A stretch of DNA of 40,982 nt from an uncultured Prevotellaceae bacterium (GTDB lineage Bacteria; Bacteroidota; Bacteroidia; Bacteroidales; Muribaculaceae), in assembly GCA_900318645.1 (NCBI GenBank), contig ONLH01000034.1, positions 1 through 40,982 of the forward strand, read 5' to 3'. The position numbers and the translations under genes were made by a program. Below, piece by piece: positions 691 through 29,483 of the stretch. Under the pieces are notes generated by a model, which was not told the origin of the DNA, made no database searches, and saw only the letters and a list, made by a program, of their open reading frames with translations. Numbering within the stretch: position 1 is the first letter of the stretch; every line of letters begins with the position of its first letter.

Positions 691-1551
691 CTACAATGCA
701 CCTTTGAATTTGACGGTTGCCTGGTGGATGGGGCGGTCACGGCCCTGCAGGTACCTATTCGTGACCGCTATGCTGCTGTGGCGGGCTTGGTCTCGTGCGA
801 TCACGATGCCGGCACTGTTGGCCAGGTCACGGATACCGCTATCCTTGAGACTGTAGAATTGGTATTCCCTGGGAATGCCTAATCGCCGTCGCAATCTTGC
901 CCAGCGGTCTCGGAAGGCTCGGCTGTCGAGCTTCACTGCACCTGGGCGAAGCCTGTTGCTGAAGATGTACCATTCCTTGGGCGCTCGTAGCGTGCCCAGC
1001 TCGCGCATCAAGACGACGATGGCGGCGTTGAGACCGACCATCTCGGCCTTGCCGTTCTTGCTGATACTTGCCCGGACATGGATGGCATGGCGCTTCACGT
1101 CGATATCACCCACCAGCAGCTCTGCCAGCTCCCCTGGACGGATGAACGTGTAGTACTCGAGCATCACCGCCAGCAGGAAGTGTTTGTCTTTGGCGGTAAG
1201 GTGCTCTTTTATTCGCCTGAGCACGGAAGCCGATAGCGGTTGCCTTATCTTCCCTGGTTCCTTCATCGGCTTGATGGCATCCATGGGATTAGGCTCAAGT
1301 CTCAGCCATGAGCAGAACGAGCGGCACCAGGTGCGGTAGTTGTTCCTGGTCCTCGGCGAGACGCACCTTTCATAGAATACCCAGTCCAGGAACTGAAGGA
1401 AATCAATTTCCTCCACACGGGTGATGCCGTGCATGGAACACCATCTCTCGAGCATGGCGAGGCGTTTGGAGTAGTCGGTACGGGTGTTGTGTTTCGGAAG
1501 TCGTGCAAGGTGTTGGCGGTATGTGACCGCGATTTCGTTGATGTCAGCCAT
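691..1551 (-). CDS. Tyrosine recombinase (phage integrase family)
   Basis: This is a 286-residue tyrosine recombinase starting at MADINEIAV. The open frame continues 44 residues upstream, but a promoter-like TACTTTTG at 1560-1567 lies inside that extension, so the 1551 start is preferred. Residues 1 to about 110 are a SAM-like core-binding domain (NTRTDYSKRLAMLERWC). The catalytic domain shows Arg I in FIRPGEL, a lysine in SISKNGKA, RHSS for the third motif, and the nucleophile Tyr in TNRYLQG. The usual HxxR box reads YSLK, with Lys in place of Arg II; as I recall, YSLK is common in Bacteroidales members. There is no arm-binding domain, unlike the second recombinase at 5327. It lies just upstream of a tail-like gene in the same orientation and opposite to the lysis cassette, which fits a DNA invertase or resolvase as well as an integrase. 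Confidence 0.85.
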   Translation of the reverse strand: MADINEIAVTYRQHLARLPKHNTRTDYSKRLAMLERWCSMHGITRVEEIDFLQFLDWVFYERCVSPRTRNNYRTWCRSFCSWLRLEPNPMDAIKPMKEPGKIRQPLSASVLRRIKEHLTAKDKHFLLAVMLEYYTFIRPGELAELLVGDIDVKRHAIHVRASISKNGKAEMVGLNAAIVVLMRELGTLRAPKEWYIFSNRLRPGAVKLDSRAFRDRWARLRRRLGIPREYQFYSLKDSGIRDLANSAGIVIARDQARHSSIAVTNRYLQGRDRPIHQATVKFKGAL

Positions 1552-1559
1552 TTTTGGCG

Positions 1560-1594
1560 CAAAAGTAGTGAGAAAAAATCGCCTTTTCCGCAAA
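1560..1594 (-). promoter_or_regulatory. Bacteroidetes-type promoter of the recombinase
   Basis: Read on the minus strand, TTTG (1591-1594) is followed after 23 nt by TACTTTTG (1560-1567), matching the TAnnTTTG -7 element. The spacing is 2-3 nt longer than usual. The ATG at 1551 lies only 8 nt past the -7 element, so the transcript would be nearly leaderless. Confidence 0.45.
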
Positions 1595-1644
1595 GTGTTA
1601 GAGATAAACCATTTAGAAAGTTTCCCGTTTTGAGATTTCATCTT

Positions 1645-1679
1645 TTTGGAGGAAAGCGAATTATTGCTCGTTAAATTTG
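1645..1679 (+). promoter_or_regulatory. Bacteroidetes-type promoter of the lysis cassette
   Basis: TTTG (1645-1648) and TAAATTTG (1672-1679), 23 nt apart, resemble the -33/-7 pair. They lie about 30 nt before the first lysis-cassette start (1709) and diverge from the recombinase promoter. Confidence 0.4.
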
Positions 1680-1708
1680 CCAATTATCAACCAAATCACA
1701 CTACAGCT

Positions 1709-1978
1709 ATGAAGAAGGACAAGATTACACATTTCTGCGCAGGTGCTATGGTCGCCATCATTGTAGGCGTACCTGCCTATCTCGAGAGCATGAACTTGTT
1801 CAGCGGTCTGTGGCCCGCCATTACGGCTGGCATCCTCGCCGCGGGTATCAAGGAGATGTGCGACGATAACACCGAAGGGAACAACTGGGACTGGCACGAC
1901 TTCGGCGCCACGTTCCTCGGCGTGCTCGTTGTTGTCGTGTTCATCATCCTGCATTACATCTTTAATGTAAAAGTATGA
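1709..1978 (+). CDS. Small phage membrane protein, YfiM/DUF2279-like pattern
   Basis: 89 residues starting at MKKDKITHF; the longer frame from 1646 would overlap the promoter. Two hydrophobic segments are visible, about residues 8-50 (broken by AYLESMN) and 69-85. The spaced residues DK-x2-HF ... AGIKEMCDD ... DFGATFLG recall the DKxxHF / KExxD / D-x2-A-x3-G pattern of YfiM-like small membrane proteins. It is the first gene of an overlapping cassette and shares ATGA with the holin gene at 1975, so translation is probably coupled. A holin accessory or antiholin role is inferred from position only. Family assignment is tentative. Confidence 0.6.
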   Translation: MKKDKITHFCAGAMVAIIVGVPAYLESMNLFSGLWPAITAGILAAGIKEMCDDNTEGNNWDWHDFGATFLGVLVVVVFIILHYIFNVKV

Positions 1979-2523
1979 ACAGCATACCGAAACTGATATT
2001 CGCACTCATCGGAGGGGCAGTCGGCTGGATTGTCGAGGAGTTCCAGCCCACCTTCCCGCTGATCATCGTGACGGTGATATTCATCGTCTACGATGCCTTC
2101 ACCGCATACCAGCTCGACAAGCGCGTGCACGAGAAGTACCCAGACAAGGTGCAGCGCGAAAAGGCCAAGTTCAACTCATTCCAGTTCAGCCACGTCATCT
2201 GCCACACCATCCCCAAGCGTCTCGCGCTCATCTTCCTCGCCTACCTGCTTGAGCACTGGGTGTTCATCCATGTGGAGATACCGCTGTCCTATGTGGCCAC
2301 CGGTGTCATCTGCTTCGAGCAGCTGTGGAGCATCCTCGAGAACGAGAGCAGCTGCCGCAGCGAGGAGGAGGGGAAGTTCTACAAGATTTTGCAGAAAATC
2401 ATGGTTGACAAGACCGAGCGTCACTTCGACGTGAACCTTGCCGACTTCAAGAAGAGACCCAAGAGATACAACAGAAAGGAGGACAACAGTTATGATGACT
2501 TTGAAAAAAGGGAGCCGAGGTGA
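1975..2523 (+). CDS. Phage holin family protein
   Basis: 182 residues. The first 110 or so contain hydrophobic segments at about 5-20 (IPKLIFALIGGAVGWIV), 27-43 (FPLIIVTVIFIVYDAF), 81-93 and 101-114. A conserved-looking LENESSC follows, then a charged C-terminal tail (KKRPKRYNRKEDNSYDDFEKREPR). Multi-pass topology with an ENxxC-like motif and a soluble tail matches the toxin secretion/phage lysis holin superfamily (phage_holin_4-like). Its start overlaps the previous stop by 4 nt and its 3' end overlaps the endolysin gene by 32 nt. Its expected role is to form inner-membrane lesions that release or activate the downstream amidase at the end of the lytic cycle. Confidence 0.75.
   Translation: MNSIPKLIFALIGGAVGWIVEEFQPTFPLIIVTVIFIVYDAFTAYQLDKRVHEKYPDKVQREKAKFNSFQFSHVICHTIPKRLALIFLAYLLEHWVFIHVEIPLSYVATGVICFEQLWSILENESSCRSEEEGKFYKILQKIMVDKTERHFDVNLADFKKRPKRYNRKEDNSYDDFEKREPR
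2474..2482 (+). promoter_or_regulatory. Strong Shine-Dalgarno site for the endolysin
   Basis: AAAGGAGG followed by ACAACAGTT and ATG at 2492 is a near-perfect anti-16S complement. It is embedded in the holin coding region and decides the endolysin start. Other genes in this window lack such a site. Confidence 0.6.
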
Positions 2524-3106
2524 TGACGTGAAGCGTCTCCAGCAGGCTCTGAAGCTGTACCCTGACGGGGTATTCGGTCCTTTGACCGAGGAGGCCGTCA
2601 AGCAGTTCCAGACCAAGTACGGTCTTGTTGCCGACGGAGTAGTCGGTCACCACACCTGGTCGCTCATCGAGGGGAACCCGGTATACAAGAAGTCCAAACG
2701 CGCCATCAACGAAATCATCGTCCACTGCACCGCTTCGTATGAGGGCAACGCCATGACTGTCGAGCAGATCAGGCGCATGCACAAGAAGGAGCGCGGCTGG
2801 AGCGACATCGGCTACCACTATGTCGTTTACCTGGACGGCACCGTCCACAACGGCCGCGACGTGAACATCAGCGGTGCCCACTGCACCGGCCACAACACCC
2901 ACTCCATCGGAGTGGTCTATGTCGGCGGTCTTGCCAAGAACGGCCAGCCCAAGGACACCAGGACTGCCGCGCAGAAGGAAGGGCTGCTAAAGCTGCTGAA
3001 GGAGCTGAAGCGCATGTACCCCAAGGCCACCATCCATGGCCACCGAGAGTATGCCAACAAGGCGTGTCCGTGTTTCGATGCGTGGAAAGAGTACCGTGGC
3101 TTATGA
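2492..3106 (+). CDS. Endolysin: N-acetylmuramoyl-L-alanine amidase with peptidoglycan-binding domain
   Basis: 204 residues. Residues 4-60 are a peptidoglycan-binding type 1 domain (GSRGDDVKRLQQAL...DGVFGPLTEEAVKQFQ...DGVVGHHTW). Residues 73-200 are an Amidase_2/T7-lysozyme-like domain. Zinc ligands are probably His78 (IIVHCTA), His184 (IHGHRE) and Cys192 (NKACPCFDA). Lys190, two before the cysteine, matches the catalytic lysine of T7 lysozyme, and GYHYVV carries the usual Tyr. There is no signal peptide, consistent with holin-dependent release. The start was chosen because a strong AGGAGG lies 11 nt upstream, within the holin gene; such a sequence is unusual in this genome. An alternative in-frame ATG follows immediately at 2495. 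The stop overlaps the next ATG. Confidence 0.93.
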   Translation: MMTLKKGSRGDDVKRLQQALKLYPDGVFGPLTEEAVKQFQTKYGLVADGVVGHHTWSLIEGNPVYKKSKRAINEIIVHCTASYEGNAMTVEQIRRMHKKERGWSDIGYHYVVYLDGTVHNGRDVNISGAHCTGHNTHSIGVVYVGGLAKNGQPKDTRTAAQKEGLLKLLKELKRMYPKATIHGHREYANKACPCFDAWKEYRGL

Positions 3107-3273
3107 GTAGGAAGTTGAGCATCGACGAGAAGATGAACAGGCAGATGCGCAGAGACCGTGCGAGGGTGAACGCGGGTCTTATCATCTTCATCGTGTGTGC
3201 GGGCATTGCTATTCTGGCCATTGCCACAATAATTGTGCATCATCTTTTAACGTCGCAATACAATTCATTTTAA
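3103..3273 (+). CDS. Small single-helix membrane protein of the lysis cassette
   Basis: 56 residues starting at MSRKLSIDE; the ATG overlaps the endolysin stop (ATGA), so the longer frame from 3064 is rejected. A very basic N-terminus (NRQMRRDRARVN, about residues 9-20) precedes one hydrophobic helix (AGLIIFIVCAGIAILAIATIIV) and a short tail. No family is recognised. Size, topology and position directly after the amidase fit a lysis accessory such as an inner-membrane spanin component, an antiholin or a second holin. The function is inferred from context only. Confidence 0.6.
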   Translation: MSRKLSIDEKMNRQMRRDRARVNAGLIIFIVCAGIAILAIATIIVHHLLTSQYNSF

Positions 3274-3277
3274 TGTT

Positions 3278-3928
3278 ATGGCAAACAAGGTAAGCAAGAA
3301 GCATCTCATTTTGATTGCCGTCGGGGCCCTCCTGTGCGTCCTGTGCGGCTTTTTGGTCGGCAAGGGTATGTACGACCGTCCCGTTGATGAAAGCGTCTCA
3401 CGGGACACCGTAATACTCCACGACACCGTTCCCGACATCGCGCCTGAGCCCAAGGACAGCGTGCGCACCAAATGGGTGACCCGCTGGCTGCCTGCGAAGC
3501 CCGACACCGTCTCGCGGAATGGGGAAATTTTCCGTGAATTTCCGCAGATTTCCGCGAATTTTTCCGCGACTGACACCGTGGCTGTGCAGGTTCCCATCAC
3601 GAGCAAGCATTACTCTGGCAAGAACTACGATGCCTATGTCAGCGGCTTCGAACCTAACCTGGACAGCATCTTCGTCTATAATGAGACCAAGTTGGTTACC
3701 GAGACGATAACGAGAATGAAGCCTCCCAATAAGTGGTCGTTGTCTGTCAATGCCGGTGTTGATTACGGAACCACATCCAAGTTTTGGCAGCCCTATGCCA
3801 GTGGCGAGCTGACGATCAACAATGACAAACGTCTGCAGCTGGGCATAGAAGGAGGCGTCAAGAAGTCTGAGGTGACTAACAACTTCGAGCCGTTTATCGG
3901 AGTGAAGGCGAAATGGAAGATATTCTGA
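3278..3928 (+). CDS. Candidate spanin-like protein with N-terminal helix and outer-membrane-like C-terminus
   Basis: 216 residues, 4 nt after the previous stop. Residues 9-29 form one hydrophobic helix (LILIAVGALLCVLCGFLVG). Residues 36-110 are a polar, Thr/Pro-rich linker (SRDTVILHDTVPDIAPEPKD). A conserved-looking core follows (VQVPITSKHYSGKNYDAYVSGFEPNLDSI), which resembles the Bacteroides phage family I know as DUF6808. The last 60 residues alternate in the manner of amphipathic beta strands (WSLSVNAGVDYG, WQPYASGELTI, RLQLGIEGGV, FIGVKAKWKIF) and end in Phe, like the C-terminal signal of outer-membrane barrels. An inner-membrane anchor plus an outer-membrane-seeking end would span the envelope, as spanins do. 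The family match is moderate; the spanin role is inference from architecture and gene order. Confidence 0.75.
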   Translation: MANKVSKKHLILIAVGALLCVLCGFLVGKGMYDRPVDESVSRDTVILHDTVPDIAPEPKDSVRTKWVTRWLPAKPDTVSRNGEIFREFPQISANFSATDTVAVQVPITSKHYSGKNYDAYVSGFEPNLDSIFVYNETKLVTETITRMKPPNKWSLSVNAGVDYGTTSKFWQPYASGELTINNDKRLQLGIEGGVKKSEVTNNFEPFIGVKAKWKIF

Positions 3929-3997
3929 ATGTGATTTGTTTAGTTATTAGTTGACTACAATTTTACCGAACATGGGGTAATAATATGAGTTATGCGG

Positions 3998-4030
3998 GTG
4001 GCTGCGTTGAGAAACGTGGCCACTTTTATT
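3998..4030 (+). terminator. Intrinsic terminator after the lysis cassette
   Basis: GTGGC (3998-4002) pairs with GCCAC (4019-4023), with an inner CGTT/AACG stem, and TTTTATT follows. It lies 70 nt downstream of the spanin-like gene and separates it from the repressor operon. Confidence 0.6.
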
Positions 4031-4160
4031 GAACTTTTTCATTTGTAAATTAGTAATAAGAGCGAGCGTCCTGTGATGATGAGAAGTGATGATGAAGGGC
4101 GCTTGATGAGGTGGGCGCGTCGTGATGATGTGCCCATTTCTTACCGAAAACAATAAAAAA

Positions 4161-4216
4161 TTATCTGATTAGATAAAATTTCTTGAAAAATGTTTGGTCG
4201 TTTATCTAATTAGATA
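4161..4216. promoter_or_regulatory. Pair of palindromic operators
   Basis: Two copies of a palindrome with TTATCT/AGATA arms occur: TTATCTGATTAGATAA (4161-4176) and the stricter TATCTAATTAGATA (4203-4216). Their centres are about 41 bp apart, close to four helical turns. The second lies between the -33 and -7 elements of the promoter at 4193-4224 and the first lies just upstream. This is the expected layout for a dimeric phage repressor. The HTH protein encoded 750 bp downstream (4968-5174) is the natural candidate ligand. Confidence 0.75.
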
Positions 4217-4224
4217 TATCTTTG
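4193..4224 (+). promoter_or_regulatory. Bacteroidetes-type promoter of the small-gene/HTH operon
   Basis: TTTG (4193-4196), 20 nt, TATCTTTG (4217-4224) is an ideal -33/-7 pair. The spacer is occupied by the palindrome TATCTAATTAGATA, so repressor binding would block the polymerase. The first gene starts 41 nt downstream. Confidence 0.8.
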
Positions 4225-4237
4225 CATCGTAATCAAT

Positions 4238-4258
4238 AAGTCAAACCAATTAAACCAA
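4238..4258 (+). repeat. Leader repeat, copy 1
   Basis: A 21-bp sequence beginning AAGTCAAACCAATTAAACC is repeated exactly at 4516-4536. In both places it ends 6 nt before an ATG (4265 and 4543), so it is a duplicated translation leader rather than a random repeat. Confidence 0.8.
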
Positions 4259-4264
4259 AGAATT

Positions 4265-4474
4265 ATGAACGCAATCAAAGTCACAACCACCAGCCAGGAG
4301 TCATTCTTCGAGACCAACGACATGGCACTTGCAAAAGAGGCAGCAATGAACTACTCGGAACGTCACAATGTGCCTACATTTGTATGGCGTAAAAAAGCGA
4401 GGGCTTGCAGCTATTGGACCCACAGTAACGGAGATGGCACTTTTACGATGTATCGTGGTGCTGGAAGAAAATAA
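4265..4474 (+). CDS. Small phage protein of unknown function
   Basis: 69 residues (MNAIKVTTTSQESFFETNDM...). Soluble and mixed in charge, with no signal peptide or membrane segment. A predicted helix (ALAKEAAMNYSERHN) is followed by strand-like TFVWRKKARACSYWTHSNGDGTFTMYRG. No family is recognised. It is the first gene after the operator-controlled promoter and shares its leader repeat with the next gene. By position it may be an early or regulatory phage protein; this is inference only. Confidence 0.6.
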   Translation: MNAIKVTTTSQESFFETNDMALAKEAAMNYSERHNVPTFVWRKKARACSYWTHSNGDGTFTMYRGAGRK

Positions 4475-4515
4475 ATTAACCAAGCTGCGCTATCGGCTAC
4501 ACGGGCACCAAAACA

Positions 4516-4536
4516 AAGTCAAACCAATTAAACCAA
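4516..4536 (+). repeat. Leader repeat, copy 2
   Basis: Exact second copy of the 21-bp leader at 4238-4258, 6 nt before the ATG at 4543. Confidence 0.8.
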
Positions 4537-4542
4537 CCGATT

Positions 4543-4920
4543 ATGTTACAGCATGAATTTGAAGCCCTGACGGGCATGAGTGTAGAAGACACTGAATTTA
4601 ACCAGGTCATCAACCCGATGTACATGTCAACCGACCTCGACAAGCAGGTGTTCTGCAAGGAATGGAAGAAGCACAACCTCGGCAACTCAGAGGTAGCCAA
4701 GGCGATGTCTGACCGAGTGAACGAGCAGCGCATGGCCATCGACGGCCTCAAGAAGCAGCTCGACAGCGTTGTGCGTTTCCTGCTGAGCCGCGGCGAGCCT
4801 GCGTGTGACAAGCAAGCCATCAAGATTGCTGGCCACAAGGAGTGCATCTCCATCAAGATGCAGCAGAACTACGAGCTGAGCGAGGACGACAGAGCCTTCA
4901 TCATCGAGATGTGCCGCTAA
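4543..4920 (+). CDS. Phage/mobile-element hypothetical protein
   Basis: 125 residues, soluble and mostly helical. The middle contains a likely coiled-coil (SEVAKAMSDRVNEQRMAIDGLKKQLDSVV, quoted here only as the stretch at about residues 49-76). Near the C-terminus is CDKQAIKIAGHKECISIK, then an acidic end (LSEDDRAFIIEMCR). I recall similar proteins in Bacteroides mobile elements but cannot name a family. It is preceded by the second leader repeat and followed after 47 nt by the HTH gene, so it belongs to the operator-controlled operon. Function unknown. Confidence 0.6.
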   Translation: MLQHEFEALTGMSVEDTEFNQVINPMYMSTDLDKQVFCKEWKKHNLGNSEVAKAMSDRVNEQRMAIDGLKKQLDSVVRFLLSRGEPACDKQAIKIAGHKECISIKMQQNYELSEDDRAFIIEMCR

Positions 4921-4930
4921 ACATTAACCA

Positions 4931-4951
4931 GGGGCGGTGATGAGCCGCCCC
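4931..4951. repeat. GC-rich hairpin before the HTH gene
   Basis: GGGGCGG (4931-4937) pairs with CCGCCCC (4945-4951) around a 7-nt loop, 16 nt before the HTH start codon. No T-run follows. It could attenuate or stabilise the downstream message. Confidence 0.5.
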
Positions 4952-4967
4952 ACAAACAAGATCAATA

Positions 4968-5174
4968 ATGGAAACAAACACCCACCGCATCCGCATTGGC
5001 CGACGCATCGCCCAGCTGCGTGCCGAGAAGAACATGACACAGGGCGACCTCGCCAAGGCGTCAGGCGTGACACTGGCCAACGTCAGCCGCATGGAGCGGG
5101 GGATGTACTCACCGGGACTGGATGTCCTCTCGAAGATTGCAGACGCCCTGGGAGCGAAGATAGACATCGTGTAA
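4968..5174 (+). CDS. XRE/Cro-C1-type HTH transcriptional regulator
   Basis: 68 residues and little more than one HTH_3 domain: RIGRRIAQLRAEKNMTQGD, then LAKASGVTLANVSRMERG, then MYSPGLDVLSKIADALGA. The helix-turn-helix is about residues 25-50, with the typical TQxxLA...xVSxxERG pattern. There is no dimerisation, peptidase or membrane domain, so it resembles Cro more than CI. It is the last gene of the operon whose promoter carries two palindromic operators, so it probably binds them and autoregulates. Binding is inferred, not shown. It could instead be an antitoxin-like regulator, but no toxin partner is visible. Confidence 0.9.
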   Translation: METNTHRIRIGRRIAQLRAEKNMTQGDLAKASGVTLANVSRMERGMYSPGLDVLSKIADALGAKIDIV

Positions 5175-5190
5175 TACCCGACTATCATCT

Positions 5191-5258
5191 ACGAAGCGAG
5201 CCGCCTCACAAGGGCGGCTCTGCTCGTATTGTTGGCGCGGGGAACCACCCACCGCGCC
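5191..5258. repeat. Tandem GC-rich hairpins after the HTH gene
   Basis: First hairpin: GAGCCGCC (5198-5205) pairs with GGCGGCTC (5213-5220), extended by ACGA/TCGT flanks. Second: GGCGCGG (5234-5240) pairs with CCGCGCC (5252-5258). Neither has a clear T-run. They sit between the HTH gene and the convergent integrase and may end or stabilise both messages. Confidence 0.55.
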
Positions 5259-5260
5259 GT

Positions 5261-5291
5261 AAGTCAAACCAATATTTTACTGAACCAAAGA
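5261..5291 (+). repeat. Degenerate third leader repeat without a gene
   Basis: AAGTCAAACCAAT (5261-5273) matches the first 13 nt of the leader repeat. After a 7-nt interruption, GAACCAAAGAA resembles the rest of copy 1 with its flank. No plus-strand gene follows before the integrase stop (5327). This may be a relic of a third leader whose gene was lost or inverted. Confidence 0.45.
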
Positions 5292-5326
5292 AGTACAGCA
5301 CCATATTGATACCGCAAAGATAGGCA

Positions 5327-6526
5327 TTATTTCGGAACTGCCAAAATTTCACCCATCAAATTATCGCATACGAGCCGCACAGCGTCACTTGCCTGCTTGG
5401 GGGTTACACTGATATAGCTGTAGAGAGAAGTGCTCACCTTGTCCACCCTGTGCCCCAGGATGAAGTCCACGACGCTCTCGCTCACCCCGAGCTGGAAGGC
5501 GTGCTGCGCGAAGGACTTCCTCGCGCTATAATATATAAGGTGCTTGACACCGGCAATCTCGGCGAGCTGCCCCATGTAGCAGTCGAAGACGCAGTGAAGC
5601 CTCGACCTGTTCTTGTGCTCGCTGAAGAACAGGCGGCCGTCATGGCCCTTGTACCTCTCGATGATCGGCTTGGCCTCGTCAGGGATGGTGAACTCGACGT
5701 ACTTGTTCATCTTCGGCCTGTTCCTGGTCTTCGTGCGCTCGTAGCGGATGGTGTTCCTGCACTCGTCGAAGTCCACCGCCAGCAGGTCAACGATGTTGAT
5801 GCCCCCGAGGTAGTAACTCAACATGAAGCAGTCCCGGCAGATCTGCACGTTCTTCCTCTTGCTCTCCGCGTCGCGTATGCGCCTCACGTCATCCACCGTG
5901 AGCCATGACTGCCTGACCTCAGGATGCGGAAGCTCGAAGCCAGAGAACGGGTCGGCGGGCGGCACGGCATAGCCGCAGCGCCTGGCGAAGTTGATGAGCT
6001 GGTTGAGGAACACGAGCCTGTCACGCCTGGTGTTGGCTGAGTAGCCCTTGTCGAGCATGAACCTGTGGAACCCGACAACAGTCAGGTGGTTGACGCGCTC
6101 CAGCATGAAGTTGTCACCGGCATATGCTGCCAGGCACTGGAAGTGGTCGGTGTATGTCGCCCGTGACCCTTGCGAGATGTTGGCCATGTCCATGTACTTG
6201 TTGAACACGTCCGTGATGTTCTTGTGCCTGTCAAGGTCTGAGTTGGTGAGCATATACACCAGTTCCGAGCATGACAGACCGTCAGCGTACTCCAGTTCGT
6301 CGATGGCGTTCTGTATTTTCTGCACCAGCTTGCGCAGTTTGGTGTTGAGGAACGATGCGTCACCCCTGTTTACCACGATGCCGTGCTTGAACTCGCGTGC
6401 GCTGTCTATGATGACATTGGTTGGGATGTAACGTGTCTGCCCGTTATGGGCGACTGAGATGCGGACCTTGTGACGTCCGTCCTTGAGTGCCTTCGTTGGC
6501 ACAATGACAGTTCTTAGTGTAGCCAT
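5327..6526 (-). CDS. Tyrosine recombinase, probable prophage integrase
   Basis: 399 residues starting at MATLRTVIV; 23 upstream in-frame residues would read through iteron-like repeats and are not included. Residues 1-45 resemble an arm-DNA-binding domain (ALKDGRHKVRISVAHNGQTR). Residues 100-190 are a SAM-like core-binding domain (FNKYMDMANISQGSRATYTDHF). The catalytic domain has an ARKSFAQHA box with Arg, ILGHR, and the nucleophile Tyr in STSLYSYI. Arg I appears to be missing: the expected position reads YLGGINIVDLL. I recall a similar IGIN...DL version in many Bacteroidales integrases, so this may be a subfamily trait. It sits at the element boundary, pointing inward, next to core genes, the usual place for an integrase. 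Confidence 0.88.
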   Translation of the reverse strand: MATLRTVIVPTKALKDGRHKVRISVAHNGQTRYIPTNVIIDSAREFKHGIVVNRGDASFLNTKLRKLVQKIQNAIDELEYADGLSCSELVYMLTNSDLDRHKNITDVFNKYMDMANISQGSRATYTDHFQCLAAYAGDNFMLERVNHLTVVGFHRFMLDKGYSANTRRDRLVFLNQLINFARRCGYAVPPADPFSGFELPHPEVRQSWLTVDDVRRIRDAESKRKNVQICRDCFMLSYYLGGINIVDLLAVDFDECRNTIRYERTKTRNRPKMNKYVEFTIPDEAKPIIERYKGHDGRLFFSEHKNRSRLHCVFDCYMGQLAEIAGVKHLIYYSARKSFAQHAFQLGVSESVVDFILGHRVDKVSTSLYSYISVTPKQASDAVRLVCDNLMGEILAVPK

Positions 6527-6529
6527 AAT

Positions 6530-6583
6530 TTTCGACAATAAAATGGTAATGAATAGAGTTATTTCGACAATTTTTCGACAATA
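6530..6583. repeat. Three direct repeats, candidate integrase arm sites
   Basis: TTTCGACAAT occurs at 6530-6539, 6562-6571 and 6573-6582, all in the same direction and just before the integrase start. A weaker relative (TTTCGATTAT) follows at about 6608-6617. Direct repeats of about 10 bp beside the gene of an arm-domain integrase are typical of arm-type binding sites; this function is inferred. Confidence 0.65.
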
Positions 6584-6586
6584 GGA

Positions 6587-6610
6587 ACGGCTCACTGGTG
6601 GGCCGTTTTT
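6587..6610 (+). terminator. Terminator-like hairpin at the element boundary
   Basis: ACGGCTCAC (6587-6595) pairs with GTGGGCCGT (6598-6606), with one G-T pair, followed by TTTTT. On the plus strand it would stop transcription leaving the element before the host gene at 6796. Confidence 0.55.
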
Positions 6611-14581: not shown

Positions 14582-17152
14582 ATGAACAACGATCGAATTC
14601 TAGAGATCAACATTGAGAACGAGATGAAGACCAGTTACATCGACTATTCGATGTCGGTCATCGTTTCGCGTGCGCTACCCGATGTGCGCGACGGCTTCAA
14701 GCCAGTGCACCGCAGGGTACTCTATGGCATGGACAAGTTGCGCAACTACTCCAATGCCCCCTACAAGAAATCAGCACGTATTGTAGGTGATGTGCTTGGT
14801 AAGTATCATCCCCACGGTGATTCATCGGTTTACCTTGCCATGGTTCGTCTGGCTCAGGATTGGGCCATGCGTTACCCGCTTGTTGACGGTCAAGGTAACT
14901 TCGGCTCGGTTGACGGTGACAGCCCCGCTGCCATGCGTTATACCGAGGTGCGTCTTGACAAGATGGGCGAAAGCATGATGGAAGACATGGACAAGGACAC
15001 CGTGGACTTCGTGCCCAACTTTGACAACACCCTTGAAGAGCCATCGGTACTGCCCACCCGAATCCCCAACCTGCTGGTGAATGGCGCCACAGGTATCGCT
15101 GTCGGTATGGCGACCAACATGGCTCCTCACAACCTGGGAGAGTGCATCGACGGTTGCCTGGCCCTGCTTGAGGATCCCGAGATGGAAGTAAGTGACCTGA
15201 TGAACTACATCAAGGCTCCTGACTTCCCCACCGGAGGTATCATCTACGGCTTCCAGGGCGTGAGGGATGCCTTCGAGACCGGTCGCGGACGCATTGTAGT
15301 TCGCGCCAAGGCCGAGATTGAGACCGAGCACAACCACGAACGCATTGTGGTCAACGAGATTCCCTACAACGTCAACAAGAAAGACCTGATCGAGAACATT
15401 GCCCGCCTGGTTGAGGAAAAGAAGATCGAGGGCATTGCCGACATCAACGACGAGAGCGACCGCCACGGTATGCGCATCGTCATCGATGTAAAGAAGGACT
15501 TTAACCCCAACGTACTGCTCAATAAGCTTTACAAGATGACTGAATTGCAGTCATCATTCAGCGTGAACAATGTTTGCCTGGTCAAAGGTCGTCCCATGCT
15601 GCTCAACCTTAAGGAGCTGCTGCATTACTTCCTGGAGCACCGCCACGAGGTGGTCATCCGCCGCACCGAGTTCGACCTCAAGAAGGCGAAGGAGCGTGCC
15701 CACATCCTGGAAGGCCTGATCATCGCCAGCGACAACATCGACGAGGTCATCGCCATCATCAAGAGCAGTGACTCGACCGAGCATGCCATTCAGCGCCTGT
15801 GTGAACGCTTCAACCTCACCGAGGTACAGGCACGCGCCATCGTTGAGATGCGCTTGCGCCAACTCACCGGATTGGAACAGGAGAAGCTGCACAACGAGTT
15901 GGCCGAGGTGCGCAAGACTATCGAGCACCTGCAGGCCATCCTCGACGATCCCGCCGAGTGCCGTAAGGTCATCGAGGAGGAGTTGCTCGAGGTGAAGGAA
16001 AAATTCGGCGACGAGCGCCGCACCCAAATCGTTTATTCCAGTGAGGAGATGAACGCTGAGGACTTCTACAGCGACGATCCCATGATCATCACCATCTCCC
16101 ACCTCGGTTATATCAAGCGCACCCCGCTCAAGGAATACCGTGCCCAGGCACGTGGCGGCGTGGGCGCCAAGGGCAGTGACACACGCGATGAAGACTTCAT
16201 CGAGTATGTCTATGAAGCCACCAACCATAATTATATGTTGTTCTTCACCGCCACGGGTCGCTGCTTCTGGCTACGCGTGTTTGAGATACCCGAAGGCACT
16301 AAGAACAGCAAGGGCCGTGCAATCCAGAACCTGCTCAACCTGGATGCCGAGAACCGCATCATGGCCTTTGTCCGTGCTACGGCACTGACCGATCCCGAGT
16401 ATAACCAGTCACATTATATTGTATTTGCCACCAAGAACGGTATTGTCAAGCGCACAAGGCTGAGTGCCTACTCACGTCCCCGTGCCAATGGCGTTCGTGC
16501 CTTGAACATCGCTGAGGACGACCAGCTCGTGGGCGCTATCTTGACCGAGGGTAACAGCGAGGTGATCCTAGCCAACAGCAAGGGCTACGCCATCCGCTTC
16601 CCCGAGACCAAGGTCCGCGACATGGGCCGCACGGCAACCGGTGTTAAGGGTATGACACTGAGCGCCGACGATGAGGTGATCGGTATGATCTGTATGCGTG
16701 CCGGCACTCGTGATGACGTTCTGGTCGTTTCAGAGCAAGGTATGGGCAAACGCAGTGCCCTCGAGGACTACCGCGTGACCAATCGCGGCGGTAAGGGTGT
16801 TAAAACTATTAACATCACACCGAAGACTGGCAAGCTAATTGCAATTAAGAATGTGAACGACGATAACGACCTTGTTATCATCAACAAGAGCGGCATCGCC
16901 ATCAGGCTACGGGTTAGCTCACTGCGTGTCGTTGGACGCGCTACCCAGGGTGTAAGGCTCATCAACCTCGAGAAGAAGAACGATGAAATAGCAAGCGTTT
17001 GCAAGGTAGATACCGAGCCCGAGAGCACCGACGAGGAGAGCGTACGCGACGCCTTCCAGGAGAGTGTCCCCGAGAACTCAGAGAACTCAGATAATACAGA
17101 GAACACTGATAACGCTGATAACTCACTAAACGAAAACGAACAAACATTATAA
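14582..17152 (+). CDS. gyrA: DNA gyrase subunit A
   Basis: 856 residues. GyrA is the DNA-cleaving and rejoining subunit of gyrase and introduces negative supercoils together with GyrB. The active-site tyrosine is Tyr120 (AAMRYTE). The quinolone-determining region reads [18 protein letters not shown]: Ser81 corresponds to E. coli Ser83, so the classic resistance substitution is absent there, and the residue aligned with Asp87 is Leu. The GyrA box is [10 protein letters not shown], typical of gyrase rather than topoisomerase IV. C-terminal beta-pinwheel repeats follow ([41 protein letters not shown]). The last 40 residues are an acidic Asn/Asp/Ser/Glu-rich tail. It follows an upstream promoter and precedes an exported TPR gene by 21 nt. 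Confidence 0.98.
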
Positions 17153-17173: not shown

Positions 17174-18313
17174 ATGAAAAAGTTAATTCTTTTAGGCGCA
17201 GCCGCTATGATGGCGTTTGGCGCATCGGCTCAGATGAGCCTCGTGAAAGACCTGTCCAAGAAGGCCTCATCAGGCAATCCTCAAGAACTCATGGAGGTGC
17301 TTCAGAACATTGTGCCTGCTCTCACCAATCCTGAGAGTGCCAACGACGTGCTGACTTGGTACACCGCCGGTAAGGCCGCCTTTGGTCTCTATGACAAGAT
17401 GTATGAGGCTAAGCTGATGAAACAGCCTGTTGATGACAAAGACATGGCTAACGCACTGACTACAGCCTACGCTTATTACCAGAAGGCACTGCCCCTGGAC
17501 AGCGTCGTTGAGGTGGACAAGAACGGTGCACCCAAGCTCAACAAGGATGGCAGCAAAAAGGTGAAGACCAAATATAGCAAGGAAATCATCGGTTCCCTTA
17601 CCACTCACCTGAATGACATTGCCAACGTGGGTAACATCTTCCTGCAGGCAAATGACTGGGCAAATGCCGCTGCTGCATTTGGCAACTATGCCGACCTGTC
17701 AAGTTCACCCTTTGCTATTGAACAGGGTGTAGCTCCCGCTAATGACATCCTGGCCGAGGTTCGTTTCTATCAGGGCTACTCACAGTACCAGATCCAGGAC
17801 TTTGAGAATGCTTACCACAGCCTCGAGAAGGCCCGCAAGCTGGGTTACACCGACAACAACATCGTTGACTTCCAGACCTCTGCTCTGGCCAATATGATTC
17901 AGGGCATGCTCGACAAGAGCGAGTATGAGAAGGCCAACAGCTTCATCGACAACGCCTTGAAGGATGACCCCATGAACGGCACCCTGCATGACATCAAGGG
18001 CTTCACTACCGAGCTGGTAAGTGGCGTGGATGCTGCTCTTCCCTACTACCGCAAGGCTGCTGAGGTTGCTCCCGATTATGCCAACGCATTCTTTGATGTT
18101 GGTCGCTGCCTCTACCTGCAGGCACAGAAGATTATCGACGATAATCCCAACGCCACCAACAAGGAACTGCTCCCCAAGATCAAGCCCATCTATGACGAGG
18201 CTATCCCGTTCTTGCAGAAGGCCATCGACCTGAACACCAACCCCGATGACAAGAAGGCCAAGAACGTGCTCGACGACATCCTGTACAAGTTTGAAATCAT
18301 GGGCGTGAAGTAA
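17174..18313 (+). CDS. Exported tetratricopeptide repeat protein
   Basis: 379 residues with a signal peptide (MKKLILLGAAAMMAFGASAQ). The mature part is helical with TPR-like units: YAYYQKALPLDSVVEVDK (about 98-115), AAAAFGNYADLSSSPFAIEQ, RFYQGYSQYQIQDFENAYHSLEKA (about 197-220, quoted as two parts: RFYQGYSQYQIQDFENAY and HSLEKARKLG), GTLHDIKGF...AALPYYRKAAEVAPDYANAFFD, and IPFLQKAIDLNTNPDDKKAK. It lies 21 nt downstream of gyrA and may share its transcript. A periplasmic scaffold role is plausible; the function is unknown. It ends at two converging terminators before dnaA. Confidence 0.88.
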   Translation: MKKLILLGAAAMMAFGASAQMSLVKDLSKKASSGNPQELMEVLQNIVPALTNPESANDVLTWYTAGKAAFGLYDKMYEAKLMKQPVDDKDMANALTTAYAYYQKALPLDSVVEVDKNGAPKLNKDGSKKVKTKYSKEIIGSLTTHLNDIANVGNIFLQANDWANAAAAFGNYADLSSSPFAIEQGVAPANDILAEVRFYQGYSQYQIQDFENAYHSLEKARKLGYTDNNIVDFQTSALANMIQGMLDKSEYEKANSFIDNALKDDPMNGTLHDIKGFTTELVSGVDAALPYYRKAAEVAPDYANAFFDVGRCLYLQAQKIIDDNPNATNKELLPKIKPIYDEAIPFLQKAIDLNTNPDDKKAKNVLDDILYKFEIMGVK

Positions 18314-27722: not shown

Positions 27723-29483
27723 TCATGAACTCAAGAGGAGGTTGATAAGCGAAGTGACATCGCTAATGTTAACCAGATTATCGGCATCCACATCAGCATT
27801 TATGTCATTGAAGTCATCAGTCGGGGCACCAGCCAAGAGGTAGTTTATCAGTGCTGTGATGTCATCGATACCCACCTTGCCATCATCATTTACATCGCCA
27901 CGCCTGCAGGCAAAGGTGTGGGTGTCAAGATAGGCAATGCGGCGCCGCAGCCAGTCACACAGGTATTCCAACTCGGCAGGAAAATCCAGGGTCCGGTAGT
28001 CAATCTCATCGGTACCAGACCATCGCTGAGACTCACGGTCCAAAGCCCCACAAGCATCAAGACGGCGGTAGATGGCCTGATAGCGTTCTACAAGGCTATC
28101 GGGATCCAACACGTTCTCTCGCAACTGCCAATACCTGTTCACAACCATCCTGTAGAACTGAGGTATAGCCTTCAAGCGGTTGAACAGTTTATTGGATTTG
28201 AACATGCACATGTTGTTGGGCACATCTTCCAATTCATTTTCAGGCTGAATCTCATCGGCATGGTAATAGCCATCAATATCGAGATAGTGCTGCCCCACCG
28301 TAGCGTCAAGGTCCCACACGGCAAAGGTGATCTTCTTGTCAACTGCCTGGTCGTAACATGCCAGTACCATATTGTTATCGGCATTATCGATACCGAACAC
28401 CACATGGAGAAACATTAAGTAATCGGCTACCACAGGCAAGTCAAAGTAGTCGCCAACCTGTCTGTTGAAATTATAGTCGTTGCTTCTTGCCACAAATTTC
28501 ACAGCATTGTACAACACACTGTAGTCTGTTGGGAACACATCATCGAGTTCAGGATATTCCAATTCATAGCCACACCATCTTTCCTTGGTATTATCAGGTA
28601 CATTTCCTGACAACATGAAAAGGGTCTGAGGTGTGCAGTCGGCGCCCTTCCACATCATGCCGTGAAATTGAACTGACGACTGTTCTGGATTGTCCTCGTC
28701 GATGACTTCCTCGTATTTCTTGAGTTTCATCTGTTTGCGGTCAAGAAACTCGTGGAAGTTGTAGAAGCCGTGATATGCTCCATTCATAAAGACCTCAACA
28801 TGGGAGCCACGGACATAGGAAAGCGCCTTGGACTGCTTGTCGGCATAGTAAGATTTGGTGCCAAAATCGGCCCAAAGGCCATTGGCGGCATAGTTGCGAA
28901 AACGTATCATATCACGCGTTCCCGCATCAAGGCGCCAGTGATTATCGTTGCGAAGCCCGAAGAAAGAAACGTCCATCTTCTCGTCGTTATCATCTATGAA
29001 CTTCACATGGTAGTTGCGCTTATAAATCCACTGTAGGTTGGTAGATGTACCAGCCTGCTTGATGCGCGCCCTGTAGCTCTGCACGCCCTGCCCATCAGGG
29101 AATGTGATTTCGACGGGAGCGACGACATAGCTGTTACTGAACGTGCCCGTTATGCACATGATGGGCAAATAAGTAAAGTGGATGGTAGATTGCGTCAACC
29201 TGCTGTCCTTCTTGAAGACGAAGGTGTAACTCGTGTCGGCCACGACAAGGGGAAAAGTCACCTGACTGGTTACTTCATGTCCGTCGATCTTTACCGATGT
29301 TACACCACTATCAATAACCACAGGGGCTTGGTAAGCGCCACCGAACACTGTCTCGGGGACAGTCAGCATATAGGTCTTGGTGCGACTGTCATAGATGGGT
29401 CGTGTTCCACCGATTGTCAACTGAGCCATGGCTGACAAGGAGATGCAGAGTAACCCAAAAGCAGATAAGTATCTCCATTTCAT
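27723..29483 (-). CDS. Secreted CotH-kinase-like protein with C-terminal dockerin repeats
   Basis: 586 residues with a signal peptide (MKWRYLSAFGLLCISLSAMA). A beta-rich N-terminal part (about 25-120) precedes a CotH-type domain (about 120-490), with RARIKQAGTSTNLQWIYKRN, RLDAGTRDMIRFRNYAANGL, GAYHGFYNFHEFLDRKQMKL, FLHVVFGIDNADNNMVLAC and FAVWDLDATVG. CotH domains are atypical kinases in spore-coat and surface proteins. Residues 525-586 carry two dockerin-like calcium-binding repeats (GDVNDDGKVGIDDITALINY; NADVDADNLVNISDVTSLIN). Activity is not proven, as catalytic residues were not checked against a structure. It overlaps the upstream DUF3109 gene by 4 nt and is probably coupled to it. Confidence 0.85.
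   Translation of the reverse strand: MKWRYLSAFGLLCISLSAMAQLTIGGTRPIYDSRTKTYMLTVPETVFGGAYQAPVVIDSGVTSVKIDGHEVTSQVTFPLVVADTSYTFVFKKDSRLTQSTIHFTYLPIMCITGTFSNSYVVAPVEITFPDGQGVQSYRARIKQAGTSTNLQWIYKRNYHVKFIDDNDEKMDVSFFGLRNDNHWRLDAGTRDMIRFRNYAANGLWADFGTKSYYADKQSKALSYVRGSHVEVFMNGAYHGFYNFHEFLDRKQMKLKKYEEVIDEDNPEQSSVQFHGMMWKGADCTPQTLFMLSGNVPDNTKERWCGYELEYPELDDVFPTDYSVLYNAVKFVARSNDYNFNRQVGDYFDLPVVADYLMFLHVVFGIDNADNNMVLACYDQAVDKKITFAVWDLDATVGQHYLDIDGYYHADEIQPENELEDVPNNMCMFKSNKLFNRLKAIPQFYRMVVNRYWQLRENVLDPDSLVERYQAIYRRLDACGALDRESQRWSGTDEIDYRTLDFPAELEYLCDWLRRRIAYLDTHTFACRRGDVNDDGKVGIDDITALINYLLAGAPTDDFNDINADVDADNLVNISDVTSLINLLLSS

Follow-up and report, generated by a model that had tools for sequence, protein, structure and literature searches.

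A DUF6808 protein as a candidate envelope-spanning lysis protein with outer-membrane-like C-terminal strands

How the phages of Bacteroidota, dominant in gut and sea, break the outer membrane is largely unexplained. Here we describe a candidate gene for this step in a 40,982-nucleotide (nt) stretch of DNA from an uncultured Prevotellaceae bacterium (contig ONLH01000034.1, hereafter the window), which is contig C66 among the 75 of a 3.6-Mb genome. Five + strand genes occupy positions 1709-3928, with successive borders of -4, -32, -4 and +4 nt, and encode in order a YfiM-like membrane protein, a holin-like protein, an amidase with a peptidoglycan-binding domain, a 56-amino-acid (aa) protein and a 216-aa protein of the family DUF6808. 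The last of these runs from ATG to TGA, begins 4 nt past the stop of the preceding gene and closes a holin-like/amidase cassette, just as an earlier reading of the letters alone (the sequence-only reading) had described it. As is expected of a spanin gene, it thus sits in a holin/endolysin cassette. The features of the locus are as follows:

3278..3928, + strand: DUF6808 protein, 216 aa, candidate envelope-spanning lysis protein (open reading frame; Pfam PF20647; phrog_26448)
3296..3373, + strand: N-terminal apolar helix, residues 7-32, probable inner-membrane anchor with the N-terminus inside (AlphaFold2; apolar run; charge)
3374..3727, + strand: predicted periplasmic stalk and conserved DUF6808 core, residues 33-150 (AlphaFold2 strands; invariant residues)
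3734..3916, + strand: four predicted amphipathic, outer-membrane-like strands, residues 153-213, then KIF (AlphaFold2; alternation test)
3103..3273, + strand: 56-aa protein with one hydrophobic stretch (in-frame part of open reading frame 3064..3273)
2492..3106, + strand: endolysin, Amidase_2 and PG_binding_1 (Pfam 1.9e-15 and 1.3e-14; phrog_822 lysis amidase, 4.3e-58)
1975..2523, + strand: holin-like membrane protein (Phage_holin_4_1, E 0.047, below cut-off)
1709..1978, + strand: small YfiM-like membrane protein (phrog_26616, E 5.5e-6; NF008028, E 6e-6, below cut-off)
5327..6595, - strand: tyrosine integrase downstream of the cassette (Arm-DNA-bind_5 above cut-off, Phage_integrase just below)
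691..1551, - strand: second tyrosine recombinase, upstream of the cassette (Phage_integrase, 6.7e-16)

The window protein is a member of Pfam family PF20647 (DUF6808; E 8.8e-24, 83.8 bits against a cut-off of 24.4) and also matches phrog_26448 (E 6.2e-30). Pfam gives no function for DUF6808, the PHROG has none assigned, and the literature that we searched yielded no paper naming either DUF6808 or DUF6549, a second family discussed below. Among whole genomes, DUF6808 occurs in 30 of the 149 surveyed from the window's family and in 5 of the 395 from its phylum, the window's own genome being included in both counts; of the five phylum-set genomes, one (locus L009) is a porin-like false positive and three others are remote. 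Sequence scans of viral and genome collections yielded 4, 56 and 23 loci, and a DUF6808-type open reading frame (ORF) was present at 117 of 118 loci. Phages bearing the gene include Bacteroides phages BF1-TP2, BKO1-TP3, BS-TP1 and BS-TP4 and gut phage csAssE-Sib, and four further phage records match the family. Clustering at 70% identity gave 76 clusters, 48 of them with at least 2.5 kb of upstream sequence. For counts on C-termini we set aside the porin-like L009, the remote, DUF6549-type or unclear L007, L008 and L010, the contig-end cuts or odd C-termini of L101, L104, L114, L116 and L117, and the open-ended L070, which took the 76 clusters to 70 and then to 69. Among the excluded rows, L117 ends in Q and L101 and L104 end in F; L101 would have supported our reading. 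The set of 48 used for gene context predates these exclusions and includes L070, L104, L114 and L117. Metagenome bins labelled Bacillota, Clostridia and Pseudoflavonifractor (L045, L049, L051) also carry this Bacteroidota-type cassette, and the taxonomic label of L051 is probably wrong.

The gene neighbourhood of the family points to lysis. As neighbour of each of the 48 cluster representatives we chose by hand the closest gene upstream on the same strand that encodes 90 aa or more; because the loci had been found by protein sequence alone, these neighbours are independent evidence. We found that a peptidoglycan hydrolase was the nearest upstream gene at 41 of the 48 loci, and that these enzymes came from six families (Amidase_3, 20; Amidase_2, 6; DUF5675, 5; GH108, 4; M15_3, 4; phage lysozyme, 2). 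Leaving out the uncharacterised DUF5675, the figure is 36 of 48. Single-linkage clustering of BLAST matches returned disjoint hydrolase groups identical to the family assignments. As controls, genes further upstream included no hydrolase (0/51, with 11/51 matching Phage_holin_4_1), nor did genes downstream of DUF6808 (0/39). Small ORFs intervene between the hydrolase and DUF6808 genes in some loci, including the window, and the pattern has exceptions at 7 of the 48 loci, in phage Molly and in L008. Of five annotated phages, four have the endolysin upstream of DUF6808, two of them immediately so and two with one gene between; in the fifth it lies directly downstream. Homologs therefore lie mostly in lysis cassettes, and the place in such a cassette that the sequence-only reading had given its single gene extends to the family.

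Since the position is kept behind six families of wall-cutting enzyme, the DUF6808 protein would be best explained, as far as gene order can tell, as a lysis partner of the endolysin, and the order of endolysin then DUF6808 parallels that of R then Rz in lambda. A lysogenic-conversion (moron) protein of the outer membrane, acting for example in superinfection exclusion, might merely sit beside the endolysin, much as lambda bor lies just beyond Rz/Rz1, and the window cassette does adjoin integrases. We regard this as highly improbable: the endolysin link survives replacement by six enzyme families, and a hairpin-bearing relative occurs in Maribacter phage Molly, for which 0 integrases and an amidase as the sole lysis gene are listed (PMC8776804).

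We next turn to the anatomy of the window protein. An AlphaFold2 model built from a 58-sequence alignment predicts a single helix at residues 7-32 (26 residues), matching the one N-terminal helix described earlier, and no second helix able to form a coiled coil. Strands are predicted through the middle of the protein (37-53, 60-72, 100-113, 118-123 and 133-147), and the C-terminus consists of four 11-residue strands (153-163, 170-180, 186-196 and 203-213). Confidence by the predicted local distance difference test (pLDDT) is 84-90 for the block from residue 151 and averages 82.5, with a predicted template modelling score (pTM) of only 0.42. Net charge over residues 1-32 is +4, and A119, S122, G123, D129 and S130 are invariant across the 58 sequences. 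The sequence-only reading had placed a Pro/Thr-rich linker after the helix; the composition holds (Pro and Thr make up 19.7% of residues 33-98), but the strands predicted there suggest that this is not a plain flexible linker. It had also described about 60 C-terminal residues alternating like beta strands up to a final KWKIF. These are indeed the last five residues, and only 1 of 20,000 composition-preserving shuffles scored as high in alternation over the four strands, on our own hydropathy scale with aromatics taken as apolar. Amphipathic strands with a C-terminal aromatic, as here, are typical of outer-membrane barrels, and AlphaFold2 predicts no globular soluble fold for this C-terminus; neither the model nor the gene context thus gave a result that the sequence-only reading had named as refuting it. 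Periplasmic Cys, which unimolecular spanins of the T1 gp11 type lack, is not seen past residue 32 of the window protein, but 36 of 67 relatives have a Cys beyond residue 40.

Both ends of the protein are conserved features of the family. An N-terminal apolar helix is found in 67 of 70 clusters, where, as at residues 7-32 of the window protein, it is predicted to be a transmembrane anchor in the inner membrane. Net positive charge falls across the helix in 43 of the 70, stays equal in 15 and rises in 12. We considered that the helix might instead be a cleaved signal peptide, leaving a mature protein of the outer membrane only, an oligomeric pore or destabiliser without a tether. The apolar run is as short as 15-16 residues in some members (for instance 15 in csAssE-Sib and 16 in BF1-TP2), and Croceibacter phage P2559S has a signal-peptide protein with outer-membrane-like strands. 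The median run across 69 clusters is 17, however, against 11 in that P2559S protein, and reaches 19 in the close relative L003; a cleavage site resembling the Q-rule, applied as set out in PMC10367356, occurs in 2 of 69 clusters; and the AlphaFold2 helix is 26 residues long. A cleaved signal peptide is, on this evidence, improbable.

At the other end, the last residue is F, W or Y in 56 of 69 clusters, compared with 24 of 405 other genes. AlphaFold2 predicts for a typical relative a two-strand hairpin (131-142/145-156; block pLDDT 84-92), and this two-strand C-terminus is the conserved form. The four-strand form is present in 6 of 33 aligned proteins (the window's and L002-L006), the extra C-terminal stretch being missing from the other 27. 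A W or F starts the last hairpin in 62 of 69, with the strand located in 67. No shuffle in 2,000 equalled the alternation of the last strand (69 proteins) or of the first hairpin strand (67 proteins), as compared to 341 of 2,000 for control 11-mers of the same proteins. Between helix and hairpin, the linker has a median length of 120 aa and a minimum of 94 (n=67), which should be long enough to cross the periplasm if extended.

In known spanins the outer-membrane end is a lipoprotein, and two-component spanins have a separate or embedded small lipoprotein gene. We found neither for DUF6808. A lipobox scan that found lambda Rz1, and that also detects a lipoprotein in L123, flagged none of 48 DUF6808 ORFs and no lipoprotein-like ORF within positions 1200-5500 of the window. 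A lipoprotein-like small ORF lay near DUF6808 in 4 of 48 loci versus 2 of 45 control stretches, which is background. A looser lipobox motif hit 5 of 70 relatives at scattered positions. Because the lipobox was looked for and is absent, the DUF6808 protein is not a spanin by the present definition.

Taken together, we lean with modest confidence toward DUF6808 being a phage lysis protein that does the job of a spanin with an outer-membrane beta anchor instead of a lipid anchor. From the model, the conservation and the gene order we infer its topology, outer-membrane insertion, oligomerisation, order of events and lysis function as follows. The N-terminal helix would stay in the inner membrane, and the beta-rich DUF6808 part would span the periplasm. 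The strands of the C-terminus (four in the window protein, two in most of the relatives aligned) would enter the outer membrane within a multi-subunit barrel, probably via the host beta-barrel assembly machinery (BAM), with the C-terminus returning to the periplasm. Because the strand number is even, whether two or four, the C-terminus would be periplasmic, as in outer-membrane barrels, and thus on the same side as the linker. Several subunits would be needed, because a barrel cannot be closed by two strands or by four; beta-pore toxins contribute two strands each, and TolC and the trimeric autotransporters four each. Once the endolysin removes the peptidoglycan holding the membranes apart, the tether could collapse, thereby fusing or rupturing the outer membrane. 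The strands might alternatively poison BAM, the hairpin mimicking the C-terminal signal of outer-membrane proteins and jamming BamA with no stable barrel formed, so that the outer membrane would already be weakened when lysis begins. No direct evidence speaks for such poisoning, to which the long conserved stalk and the inner-membrane helix would be superfluous, and we consider it very unlikely. Were the strand-anchored reading true, a protein held in one membrane by a helix near one end and in the other by barrel strands near its opposite end would belong to a named gene family in isolated phages and be directly testable there.

As a single protein predicted to link both membranes, DUF6808 would work like a unimolecular spanin (u-spanin). 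A 2018 survey describes u-spanins, some with beta-rich periplasmic domains, as having an N-terminal lipoprotein signal and a C-terminal transmembrane helix (PMC6139136). DUF6808 proteins share with the T1 gp11 type the presumed joining of both membranes by one protein, a beta-rich periplasmic part (here as AlphaFold2 strands) and a place in the lysis cassette. They lack that pair of termini and are set apart by architecture, the order being reversed, with the inner-membrane helix N-terminal, no lipobox, and strands at the C-terminus. The sequence-only reading had called a single protein of this kind a different design; one-protein spanins were already known, as that survey makes clear (PMC6139136), so the new element lies not in the use of one protein but in the strand-type anchor for the outer membrane and in the reversed order. 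Lambda Rz/Rz1 resembles DUF6808 in gene position after the endolysin and in the N-terminal helix typical of inner-membrane spanins (i-spanins), and differs in that DUF6808 is one gene, with no lipoprotein nearby above background and no coiled-coil helix predicted. The anchors of trimeric autotransporters such as YadA and AtaA, 12-strand trimers with four strands per subunit, belong to adhesins of the cell surface that carry a signal peptide and are not known to be anchored in the inner membrane. In contrast to these, most aligned DUF6808 proteins are two-stranded, and the structural match to such an anchor was tied with unrelated rows. Our literature searches on spanins turned up no strand-anchored spanin in the titles or abstract openings among the matches listed.

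Further candidates came from proteins that match DUF6549 (PF20186) or resemble it. A DUF6808-like C-terminal hairpin is present on longer bodies in L007/L127, L010, Elizabethkingia phage TCUEAP3 and phage Molly. The hairpin protein follows a glucosaminidase in L007/L127 (Pfam 3.3e-28) and, by eye, an amidase-like gene in L010, where the DUF6808 score is just under cut-off; in TCUEAP3 it lies two genes after an annotated amidase and has no DUF6549 match. The DUF6549 matches of L007/L127, L010 and Molly are weak, all under cut-off. DUF6549 proteins without the hairpin occur in L124 and B40-8 (both above cut-off), in B124-14, whose protein is 78% identical to that of B40-8, and in crAss001 (weak match). 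Those of L124, B40-8 and B124-14 resemble DUF6808 in the N-terminal helix and in adjoining the endolysin gene, and differ in being longer-bodied, with a coiled coil by eye. In L124 (1414-2055) the DUF6549 protein follows an M15-like peptidase (by eye), and a second hydrophobic stretch replaces the hairpin.

These hairpin-less proteins bear on another explanation, that DUF6808 is an inner-membrane-anchored periplasmic lysis protein whose hairpin, rather than inserting, binds a host outer-membrane protein or a phage partner, making it the i-spanin-like half of a pair. The DUF6549-type proteins of B40-8, B124-14 and crAss001 consist of a helix and a stalk, with no strands. B40-8 (L133) and B124-14 carry a lipoprotein ORF about 1 kb downstream (in B40-8 the DUF6549-type protein is at 15801-16406 and the lipoprotein ORF at 17380-17796, with an equivalent in L131), and the 2018 survey had proposed for B40-8 a spanin pair about 1 kb apart (PMC6139136); no lipoprotein-like ORF appeared in the 6 kb scanned of crAss001. 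That a hairpin alone cannot close a barrel also favours this explanation. On the other hand, lipoproteins near DUF6808 are at background, and the C-terminal aromatic and two-face alternation are typical of inserted strands, so that we judge such a half-pair unlikely.

The strand-anchor reading can also be set against phages held to lack spanins. In the 2018 survey, no spanin was found in Bacteroides phage B124-14 or in Croceibacter phages P2559S and P2559Y, and an outer-membrane protein was named as a possible outer-membrane spanin (o-spanin) but not considered there (PMC6139136). In P2559Y (L134:22998-23621), a protein with a helix and four strand-like segments (by eye) is encoded directly after the amidase gene; it has no Pfam similarity to DUF6808, and its N-terminus was flagged by the lipobox scan (C25, with Lys at -2, outside the published consensus). 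In P2559S (L132:27300-28065), two ORFs that overlap in different frames come after the amidase gene. The first encodes a helix-coil protein; the product of the second starts with a signal peptide (end LALS|Q), continues as a coil and finishes in strand-like segments with a terminal W (by eye). The pair is conserved with this overlap in L141 and L142, and GenBank annotates only the last part of the second ORF (27826-28065). This pair is possibly a two-component spanin in which an outer-membrane protein replaces the lipoprotein, but two lipoprotein-like ORFs are also present, one about 1 kb downstream (29131-29478) and one of 48 aa upstream. Of the three spanin-less phages on which the prediction was run, P2559Y and P2559S thus fit, with lipoprotein caveats, and B124-14, which has no strands, does not.

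A broader view, which we hold only tentatively and with some doubt, is that phages of Bacteroidota open the outer membrane with a class of proteins of their own. In this class a hairpin or a four-strand unit, inserted by BAM, would take the place of the lipid anchor of spanins and build a homo-oligomeric barrel that is linked to the inner membrane. Each subunit would contribute two or four strands to that barrel. The single-protein form would comprise DUF6808, the hairpin-bearing DUF6549-like proteins and perhaps the P2559Y protein; the overlapping-pair form, in P2559S and its relatives, would join an inner-membrane coil to a protein made of signal peptide, coil and outer-membrane strand. The lipoprotein-like sequences in both Croceibacter phages weigh against this Bacteroidota-wide form. 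Bacteroidetes phages have been said to use only unimolecular spanins, on the strength of a filter that demanded a lipid box (PMC12596118), and another study reports unimolecular spanins in two Cellulophaga phages (PMC8776804). If true, our reading would account for part of the 'spanin-less' phages, through the option of an outer-membrane protein as o-spanin that the survey had named, and a predicted helix-plus-strand protein may explain how some phages of Bacteroidota breach that membrane.

Fold and remote-homology searches gave no decisive parallel. Searching solved structures by sequence with the single protein returned weak matches only, to proteins that bind sugars or betaine (best E 0.038), and the family profile returned nothing at E up to 10. 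Foldseek and VIA gave weak matches and no decisive fold; for the two-strand model they listed no outer-membrane fold, which is an absence only. In BFVD the top two matches were DUF6808 proteins, two others below E 0.001 were unnamed or uncharacterised, and a Cellulophaga phage 'structural protein' followed at E 0.027. After DUF6808 itself, the Pfam family matched by most members was OMP_b-brl, weakly (5 of 58, best E 0.009). Among the structural matches, I7J3Y1 of Yersinia phage phiR1-RT, described with a YadA-like membrane anchor, was a weak one (E 1.1).

With respect to its surroundings, the cassette most likely marks one end of a prophage, because the corresponding genes on L003, a 64-kb viral contig, are followed by an integrase (phrog_1, 9.1e-23) and preceded by a reverse transcriptase. 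A second, related DUF6808 copy lies in the same genome as the window, on contig C70 (76% identical). The 56-aa protein at 3103..3273 had no family match above the curated cut-off in profile searches, and promoter and terminator scans were at background. Elsewhere, DUF6808 is followed in L073, L081, L068, L087, L050 and L048 by three genes, whose products are about 150, 172 and 180 aa long, and the same three-gene run follows it in phage BS-TP4 (L130:3414-4940). The middle gene (about 172 aa) is roughly half identical among many such loci, and one member compared with Pfam gave no match. In the window itself, a 30-nt repeat (90%) at 4238-4267 and 4516-4545 ends in ATG before two small genes, and is maybe a shared leader or ribosome-binding region.
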